Shown: one piece after another, positions 16,732 through 62,220 of the stretch
How positions within the stretch are numbered: the first letter of the stretch is position 1
How the letters are laid out: each line of letters begins with the position of its first letter
Source of the DNA: Guyparkeria sp. SCN-R1
Lineage (GTDB): Bacteria > Pseudomonadota > Gammaproteobacteria > Halothiobacillales > Halothiobacillaceae
NCBI RefSeq assembly: GCF_003932495.1
Contig: NZ_QZMT01000006.1
Coordinates: forward strand, 62,001 to 126,000
Direction: 5' to 3'
DNA length: 64,000 nucleotides
The notes under the pieces: generated by a model
Databases searched by the model: none
What the model was told of the DNA's origin: nothing
What the model saw: the letters and a program-made list of their open reading frames with translations, nothing else
Made by a program: the position numbers and the translations under genes

Positions 16732-20427
<3,696 letters not shown>

Positions 20428-20508
20428 GGGCGACGCGCGGTCCTGAATCGGCCGGGCCGTCGTCCTGCACAGGCGGGGCAGGCCGCACGGCCGGCGCGGT
20501 GAATTATT

Positions 20509-20673
20509 AAGGAAGGTCTGCACGAATAGCCAACGCCTCTGCAGGGCCTGCCGGCTTGCCCGCCCTCGGTGTTGCCGATCCTCGCCGGGCAATGAGCCTG
20601 CCTTCGAATCGGCGCCTTGATGGCGAACAAGCCGGTAAGCCAGAAGCATTGGCTATTCGTGCGGACCTTCCTT
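20509..20673. mobile_element. 165-bp MITE-like element with IS5-type 28-bp terminal inverted repeats
   Basis: The left end (20509-20536) and right end (20646-20673) are inverted copies with only two mismatches in 28 bases. The left arm contains GGAAGGTCTGCACGAATAGC. Similarity between the two halves continues inward with a gap. The terminal GGAAGGT resembles the ends of IS5-family insertion sequences. The interior has no transposase, so this is a non-autonomous miniature element. No clear target-site duplication was found. It occupies the gap between the DUF2062 gene and metH, 81 bp upstream of the metH start, where it may affect metH transcription. Confidence 0.72.
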
Positions 20674-20722
20674 TTGAGCGGGAGTATAACGTAGAGCCCC
20701 CGCAAGGAGGGGGGGCGCGGGG

Positions 20723-21277
20723 TCAGTGCTTGCGCGAGTCGCGCTGGGATTGGCGCAGACGCAGAAAACGCTGGGCGCGGCGACGGCGCTTGTGGATCGA
20801 GATATTGATGCGCCAGAGCACGCGGATGATGGTAAAGCCGAGCAGCGCGCTGACGAACGACAGGGTGAGCAGCCCAACGCCCAGCGGCAGCCAGATCGCG
20901 GGCAACTGGCTCATGGCATAGCCGACGCTCATCTCGCCGGTCGGCGGGGCCAGTGCCGCGCCGGTGAGCATGGCGCCAATCTGGTAGGCAAGCCAGAGCA
21001 GTGGCGGGATGGTGACCGGGTTGGTGGTCCAGACGAGCGCGACCGCCAGGGCGATGTTGACCCGCATGGCGATGGCCCCCACGGCCGCGATCAGCATCTG
21101 GCCCGGCAGCGGAATGAAGGCGAGAAACAGACCGAGGGCGACACCGCCGGAAACCGAGCGGCGGTTGAGGTGCCAGAGGTTCGGATCGCCGAGGAACTGC
21201 GCCACCGGGCGCAGGAACGGCTGGTTAACGATCCGCTGGCGATTGGGTGTCAGTCGACGAAAGAACTTGCGTGGCAT
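20723..21277 (-). CDS. DUF2062 domain membrane protein
   Basis: A 184-residue protein. The DUF2062 core spans about residues 25-160, with SVSGGVALGLFLAFIPLPGQ and WTTNPVTIPPLLWLAYQIG, the two signature segments of the family. Three to four hydrophobic segments are present, with highly basic ends (MPRKFFRRL and KRRRRAQRFLRLRQSQR). It is an inner-membrane protein of unknown function. It is separated from metH by the inverted-repeat element. Confidence 0.87.
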   Translation of the reverse strand: MPRKFFRRLTPNRQRIVNQPFLRPVAQFLGDPNLWHLNRRSVSGGVALGLFLAFIPLPGQMLIAAVGAIAMRVNIALAVALVWTTNPVTIPPLLWLAYQIGAMLTGAALAPPTGEMSVGYAMSQLPAIWLPLGVGLLTLSFVSALLGFTIIRVLWRINISIHKRRRRAQRFLRLRQSQRDSRKH

Positions 21278-62072: not shown

Positions 62073-62139
62073 TGTAGGAGCGGCTTCAGCCGCGACGAAT
62101 AAGGGCACGCCGCCGTTCGCGCCTAAAGGCGCTCCTACA
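62073..62139. repeat. BIME 1: two REP units in opposite orientation
   Basis: The left unit, GTAGGAGCGGCTTCAGCCGC, and the right unit, ending GCGCCTAAAGGCGCTCCTAC, are inverted copies of the same design, each with its own hairpin. It begins eight bases after the rfbA stop codon. Confidence 0.8.
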
Positions 62140-62153
62140 AAGGAAGAAAGAAC

Positions 62154-62220
62154 CGTAGGAGCGGCTTTAGCCGCGAAGGACGTCTACCGCAGCCGGATCG
62201 CGCCTGAAGGCGCTCCGGCA
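62154..62220. repeat. BIME 2: second pair of REP units
   Basis: GTAGGAGCGGCTTTAGCCGC starts the left unit; the right unit contains GCGCCTGAAGGCGC. The spacing is the same as in BIME 1 (67 bp in total), so the pair repeats in tandem with a period of 81 bp. Confidence 0.78.

Follow-up and report, generated by a model that had tools for sequence, protein, structure and literature searches.

A short inverted-repeat element upstream of metH

We analyzed a window of 64,000 nucleotides from Guyparkeria sp. SCN-R1, in which a short inverted-repeat element lies between the methionine synthase gene metH and an upstream neighbor open reading frame (ORF) (Table 1). The two arms of the repeat, at 20509-20541 and 20641-20673, are 33 nt each, 91% complementary with 3 mismatches, and 99 nt apart, whereas the longest inverted repeat with up to 3 mismatches in 40 simple letter shuffles of 20300-20900 was 18 nt. 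The initial annotation had described a 165-bp element with 28-bp ends bearing 2 mismatches; the inverted repeat was confirmed, and the lengths had to be revised to those given here, the element proper being 163 bp. Its placement 81 bp upstream of the metH start (20427 to 20509) stands as first described, and so does the absence of a transposase gene, since 163 bp is too small to hold one. The element sequence opens with AGGAAGGTCTGCACGAATAG.

Table 1. Features of the metH region (positions in the window)
Feature	Position	Strand	Basis and remarks
metH, methionine synthase	16732..20427	-	TIGR02082, 1769.9 bits (cut-off, 1010.85); NF007024, 2159.7 bits
TA border, target-type dinucleotide	20508..20509		Sequence; TT at the opposite border (20673-20674)
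One-armed MITE-like element, 163 bp	20510-20672	None	Covariance model R1, 143.2 bits on + and 84.7 bits on -; inverted repeat
Left terminal inverted repeat (outer stem, 5' strand)	20510..20541	+	Inverted repeat and model alignment
Gap point, arm 1 and linker (about 104 bp) missing	20541..20543		Model gap of 99 positions plus 5
Sole hairpin arm retained (family arm 2)	20544..20640	None	Model alignment and sequence; arm motifs also in 16 divergent genomes
Arm-2 core motif GGTGTTGCC	20568-20576		
Arm-2 core motif GGCGCCTTGAT	20611-20621		
Right terminal inverted repeat (outer stem, 3' strand)	20641..20672	-	Inverted repeat and model alignment
CGTTATACT, putative -10-like box of metH	20683..20691	-	Lies 10 nt beyond the element; found ahead of metH in 10 of 10 congeners whose leader is readable
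Upstream neighbor ORF, 184 aa	20723..21277	-	No confident family; sub-threshold NCBIfam match, 36.7 bits (cut-off, 300)

The usual form of the family to which the element belongs is about 267 bp long and consists of a terminal-repeat stem bearing two hairpin arms. Judged from the model alignment, the window copy is a one-armed derivative of this two-armed family from which arm 1 and the linker have been lost. The heptamer CTGCGGG stands at the start of arm 1 in intact A-type copies and, in some of them, also at the start of arm 2; as the missing stretch is flanked by CTGCGGG in those copies, slippage between the two repeats is a likely cause of the deletion.

Copies in the genome

The genome of the strain (2.42 Mb, 68 contigs) gave 44 matches to the window element and 61 to an intact copy, partial and both-strand matches included. 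Thirty-seven copies could be delimited, and thus the further copies for which the initial annotation had proposed a search do exist. Thirty-two are full-length (262 to 280 bp) and five are shorter or interrupted, the window copy being one of the five; undelimited or partial copies lie at five more loci (L024, L052, L056, L059, and L069). Three sequence subfamilies are visible in the alignment of these copies. In L058 (1504-1842) and L044 (1504-1765), we observed a foreign stretch with GCAAGCCGGCCCGAAGGGCGAGG in arm 1, perhaps a second small repeat that was inserted there.

Gene picking was crude, the picked ORF overrunning the element in 13 of the 37 copies (the metH frame included), and orientation was therefore counted only on the 24 copies clear of ORFs. 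Seventeen of these lie between co-directional genes (10 and 7 by orientation), 5 between convergent genes, and 2 between divergent genes. Where an ORF overruns an element, as the metH frame does, the start codon was probably called too far upstream.

The dinucleotide TA adjoins the element at 15 of 36 left ends and 15 of 36 right ends (at both ends in 6 copies and at either in 24), against a background of 1.4% in the loci, and it is preceded by C in 11 of 15 cases and followed by G or A in 14 of 15. These borders at most suggest a target-site duplication; equal flanking dinucleotides were no commoner than in shuffled sequence (9 of 36; P = 0.35). The element has terminal inverted repeats, is short, lacks a transposase gene, occurs at unrelated sites, and is missing from the metH site in 7 of 10 readable congeners. 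Its designation as a MITE is upheld by the many genomic copies, the TA-rich borders, and the empty sites described below.

The metH leader in related genomes

The sequence CGTTATACT is a putative promoter box of metH, which a consensus scan does not flag. Ten congeners had a readable leader; in G003, metH is located at the edge of a contig, for which reason this genome was left out. The leader is empty in seven of the ten, with 67 to 90 nt between box and ATG, and filled in three, where this distance is 255 nt (G000), 354 nt (G005), and 284 nt (G010). The leader of G000 (L086) contains a short A-type copy (143.2 bits) 10 nt after the box, that of G005 (L089) a full C-type copy (250.6 bits) 13 nt after it, and that of G010 (L095) a degraded copy (38.9 bits for the arm-2 part), by eye 11 nt after it. 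The closest relatives by the first 600 nt of metH, namely, G001 and G009 for G000 and G004 for G005, are empty, which points to at least two, and probably three, independent insertions, the alternative being repeated precise loss. The empty sites are those for which a search among relatives had been suggested, and they contradict the possibility that all relatives carry the same sequence at this place.

Different family members were seen near the same spot, 10 to 13 nt past the -10-like box, in G000, G005, and G010. Genome-wide, sites just past -10 boxes were not clearly preferred (6 of 74 flanks, or 5 of 74 in the opposite reading, versus 25 of 592 control windows). A further family copy lies farther upstream of metH in L088 (2820-3071) and L095 (2214-2463).

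The initial annotation had also considered that the element could supply metH with a promoter or terminator. Neither a promoter nor an intrinsic terminator was found by a consensus scan of 20380-20780, a weak scan that overlooks the conserved -10-like box too, and this suggestion was not borne out.

Fold and covariation

An intact copy forms a three-way junction: the terminal repeats pair as an outer stem, within which arm 1 and arm 2 follow one another with a small linker hairpin between them. Across the aligned copies, 55 of 99 consensus pairs are changed on both sides with pairing kept. Paired cells make up 96.6%, versus 80.9% when shuffled and 34 to 40% with partners slid, and the covariation score is 0.428 versus 0.148. 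Furthermore, within subfamilies we counted 80 double changes that restore Watson-Crick pairing, where about 10 doubles of any kind would be expected if the two sides were independent; the count was made on 29 of the 32 aligned copies (L027, L044, and L066 left out), and because copies share ancestry, the events are not independent. Selection on the fold and correction of imperfect palindromes can each account for this excess, and either suffices.

Covariation of this kind would also be compatible with a structured noncoding RNA or a cis-regulatory metH leader that is kept for its RNA fold. The predicted RNA fold of the window element is very stable (-104 and -113 kcal/mol on the two strands), the site is in the presumed transcribed leader, and three congeners have a family member there. 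Arms 1 and 2 are, however, inverted copies of each other, so that the model matches both strands, and G.T and A.C were counted only at pairs that form in the fold of either strand. The totals were 53 G.T and 36 A.C (outer stem, 15 and 17; arm 1, 28 and 7; arm 2, 10 and 12). A larger contrast, 165 G.U versus 38 A.C, was set aside since it leaned on the structure predicted on that strand. A strand-specific RNA structure was thus considered and rejected, the G.T excess being only moderate overall, which speaks against one functional RNA strand; arm 1 is the exception, and its surplus could reflect an RNA role for that arm. Besides, nothing occupies the metH site in seven of the ten readable congeners, and the 24 ORF-free copies are of mixed orientation. 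No Rfam match was found in the window element at gathering cut-offs, at which the whole window yields only one tRNA, or in L031, L054, and L060 at E values up to 1; the one match in L089 (E, 0.27) lies outside the element. We consider a structured RNA or cis-regulatory leader very improbable. The weak strand bias and the inverted symmetry together suggest that the fold may matter, or be maintained, at the DNA level.

Distribution across bacteria

DNA searches detected the element in 10 of 11 genomes of the genus (that of the strain included), and further genomes were positive in the family (4 of 14) and in the class (2 of 15). With the covariance model, matches at E ≤ 1e-5 were obtained in 64 of 274 class genomes and 52 of 221 genera, 3 of the 64 genomes being from the genus of the window; at most seven candidates per genome were scored under strict filters, and the matches lean to Guyparkeria letters because model R1 was built from Guyparkeria copies. 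This frequency matters for annotation, since a family found in so many of the sampled class genomes is yet without an Rfam match in the copies tested.

A core pattern that fixes 23 letters, whose conservation in the matches is thus by construction, retrieved at least 117 stretches, 80 of them listed with names, and 53 of 54 tested loci from this set matched the model at E ≤ 1e-5 (the exception was L117). Strong model matches came from Nitrosomonas halophila (161 bits), uncultured Comamonas (164 bits), a Sulfurisoma MAG (177 bits), an Acidobacteria MAG (135 bits), and, in one-armed form, Streptomyces (57 bits). Matches from Planctomycetota, Omnitrophota, Opitutales, and Myxococcota were weak (31 to 49 bits) and rested mainly on the pattern itself. 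MAG records may be mis-binned; named strains include Streptomyces sp. NBRC 110028, Nitrosomonas halophila Nm1, Microbulbifer rhizosphaerae, and Marinobacter xestospongiae.

Streptomyces sp. NBRC 110028 (L129) has at least 40 one-armed copies with CTAGTGCCGCGTCAG ends, 96 to 100% identical over 165 to 181 bases, and from this near identity they look like the product of a recent burst. The parent transposase of these ends was not found among the 40 of 175 candidates scored, all of which were element copies. In Planctomycetota, three loci (L139, L195, and L158) each have just one core hairpin, about 100 bp long, whose outer pairs are of the CTGAAAA type and whose borders lack a clear TA; these may be a separate branch. 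Searches of 72,556 plasmid records returned 9, 1, 0, 0, and 0 matching records, and neither of the two inspected among the nine has an annotated feature in the stretch. Phages gave 0 and 0 matches among 50,697, E. coli gave none, and the exact core pattern was absent from viral contigs.

Conserved core and changing ends

Conservation within the element was compared in 16 divergent genomes of the class that the model had retrieved, after 6 of the 22 sources had been set aside as close to Guyparkeria. The best-kept letters are those of the arm tips (CAAGGCGC ... AATGG ... CCTT..CAAG ... GCAACGCC, with the complement in arm 2) and of the linker (CGCCC..GGG), whereas the terminal repeats and the stem letters vary among the same genomes with complementarity retained. 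The evidence lies in this contrast between core and stem and not in the level of conservation, as the model is biased to Guyparkeria letters everywhere.

The pattern matches provide a second test, in that arm 2 and the linker are not fixed by the pattern. For this test, 109 of the at least 117 loci were used (L226 to L233 left out), and 99 of them were placed: 46 elements of two-arm length, 34 of the short class, and 19 outside the score or length limits. The arm-2 signature was present in 30 of the 46 two-arm-length elements, some of which are from Guyparkeria or Halothiobacillus, versus 15 of 9,200 shuffles, and the linker was present in 38 of the 46 versus 611 of 9,200; none of the 34 short-class elements had the arm-2 signature.

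Around this core, the same 109 loci (again with L226 to L233 left out) displayed unlike classes of ends: RGGAANCTCTG, and CTAGTGTAGTG, CTAGTGTGGTG, and GTGTCCTG. Streptomyces has CTAGTGCCGCGTCAG, Acidobacteria AGGGCCCGTCAGGAAATAAGG, Nitrosomonas GGGCTCGTTAATGAATAA, Comamonas AGAACCTGTTTACGATC, and Opitutales AGAGGGTGTCTAAAAAG.

These observations bear on whether the element is simply an ordinary IS5-derived MITE, that is, an IS with its inside deleted, in which the internal letters are unimportant and the arms stay complementary through template-switch correction alone. Template-switch correction maintains the complementarity of imperfect palindromes, and the excess of two-sided changes within subfamilies (80 versus about 10) is as palindrome correction would give; the IS5-class ends are also as expected of such a derivative. 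However, the same letters are found at the arm tips and in the linker of elements whose ends are unalike, and across phyla, while the adjoining stem letters change, and no such core was detected in the four IS loci checked (L246, L268, L269, and L275), where the core model gave nothing better than an E value of 0.4. We regard this account as unlikely, if still worth serious consideration. In breadth and in structure, the family exceeds what a decayed IS would show.

We tentatively propose, as a possibility held at less than even odds, that the core hairpin is a structure-defined mobile DNA module occurring across phyla. The module would be marked by the tips CAAGGCGC and GCAACGCC, would stand single or as an inverted pair around the linker hairpin, and would be the constant part under selection. 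With exchangeable ends, it would have been moved by several transposases unrelated to one another, and a conserved cellular factor would recognize its constant letters, probably in DNA that is extruded or single stranded.

The common view of bacterial MITEs is that they are broken IS whose inside has little meaning. In this family, it is the ends that vary and the inside that is better kept, with matches from Gammaproteobacteria, Betaproteobacteria, Acidobacteria, and Streptomyces. A host factor that reads the core, should there be one, would help mobile DNA in general, and the survival of MITEs beyond their parent transposases would become testable.

Candidate transposases

We examined 34 DDE_Tnp_1 loci, 24 in 8 of 14 genomes with the element and 10 in 7 of 25 relatives. 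Ends of the RGGNANCTC class were present on four, namely, L246 among the 24 and L268, L269, and L275 among the 10. Three proteins were scanned, and those of L268, L269, and L246 belong to the IS5 family by NCBIfam NF033581 (361, 308, and 242 bits, respectively). The IS end of L268, GGGAACCTCTGATCAATT, and the MITE end in L107 agree without a mismatch for 18 nt, the two being in different genomes. It was also observed that the MITE ends of L107 (G217) and L109 (G107) share 17 to 18 nt with this IS5-family end, which is in a genome (G033) of another family.

Matching IS and MITE ends within one genome were found in none of the genomes examined. None of the 24 DDE_Tnp_1 loci from the 8 genomes clearly has the ends of the MITE copy representing its own genome; indeed, the ends of L246 differ from those of the G081 MITE copy used. 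In G015, which is of the family of the window, the MITE begins with GGGAGTCTCTACACGAA and the IS5-family IS with GGGCACCTCGAAAAACC, and the ends diverge after about 9 nt. The genome of the strain contains no PF05598 and no PF01609 protein, so that the full-length IS5 parent with the same ends that the initial annotation had hoped for was not found there. Within the genus, PF01609 occurs in 1 of 11 genomes, on an element with other ends, and PF13358 and PF13586 in none of the 11. The PF05598 search covered the genome of the strain. Together, the own-genome and genus searches found no IS with the Guyparkeria end. Thus, the label IS5-like holds as far as the end class goes (4 of the 34 loci, with three scanned proteins of the IS5 family), and it did not extend to a same-genome pair or to a parent in the genome of the strain. 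The window element is IS5-type by end class only.

A TA-targeting transposase, of the IS630/Tc1 type or another, might have mobilized the element instead of IS5. The target of IS630 is TA, and the TA border of the copies lies in a CTAG-like context (preceded by C in 11 of 15 cases and followed by G or A in 14). CTAGTG-type ends occur in other lineages of the family, and the searches yielded no IS5 whose end is exactly that of the Guyparkeria copies. On the other hand, the DDE_3 (PF13358) protein is absent from the 11 genus genomes, which were the ones searched for it, and no parents of the CTAGTG-type ends were found. The end class of the Guyparkeria copies is, moreover, the class found on IS5-family elements. 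We judge mobilization by such a transposase to be improbable.

Proposed origin of the element

The family is present in many copies, with empty sites, a covarying fold, and an end class common to IS5 elements elsewhere. We propose, with a probability of roughly 70%, that the feature is a MITE, a deletion derivative, and that a transposase acting in trans, most likely of the IS5 family, inserted it downstream of the metH promoter and ahead of the start codon. Our confidence is lowered because no matching IS-MITE pair was found.

The transposase, most likely of the IS5 family, would have been supplied in trans and would have acted on RGGAANCTCTG-type ends at a TA-containing target. An intact member has a terminal-repeat stem, two mutually inverted arms, and a small linker hairpin; the window copy has lost arm 1 and the linker. 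Over evolution, the fold and some arm-tip and linker letters appear to have been kept while the terminal repeats switched by lineage, presumably following the transposase in use. We infer that the fold matters, or is maintained, at the level of DNA, as a cruciform or single-stranded hairpin, and not as one RNA. The metH mRNA is expected to contain the element near its 5' end, folded into a hairpin of 163 nt; any effect on metH would probably be modest, through mRNA stability or processing and not through a new promoter or terminator.

Comparison with known repeat families

We found no description of the family in the open-access literature, including the accessible parts of PMC4666352, PMC10969869, and PMC2229807; subscription journals and ISfinder lay outside the scope of the search, and an earlier description is possible. 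Like IS5-family MITEs, the element has terminal repeats of an IS5-borne class, no transposase gene, multiple copies, and a TA-containing target. Unlike them, the family has a conserved two-armed inside, absent from the four IS loci checked, and the same core is found with unlike ends.

According to the accessible part of one survey, RUP of Streptococcus pneumoniae, Correia/NEMIS, and ERIC are small and nonautonomous, bear terminal repeats with TA at their ends, form single long stem loops, and are each tabulated for one genus or group (PMC2229807). The family of the window shares the small size, nonautonomy, terminal repeats, and TA termini with these elements as described there, and differs in its three-way junction, two-sided pair changes, and occurrence in several phyla. 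The same part of that survey describes the CIR repeats of Caulobacter and Brucella as two long inverted-repeat arms plus a linker, with a GANTC motif and no terminal repeats tabulated (PMC2229807). Two inverted-repeat arms joined by a linker are thus common to both, whereas the present family has a closing stem and other motifs; the two are set apart by this description and not by sequence.

REP and REPIN sequences are palindromic multicopy repeats in the available portions of two reports (PMC3116915, PMC3733652), in one of which REPs are given as 20 to 40 bp long and GTAG or CGTC tagged (PMC3733652). The present family is likewise palindromic and multicopy, but it is about 163 to 280 bp long and has terminal repeats and TA borders, a distinction again made by description and not by sequence. 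Elsewhere in the window, at 62076-62176, there are two overlapping short REP-like palindromes, which score 14 bits with the model and thus fall outside the family.
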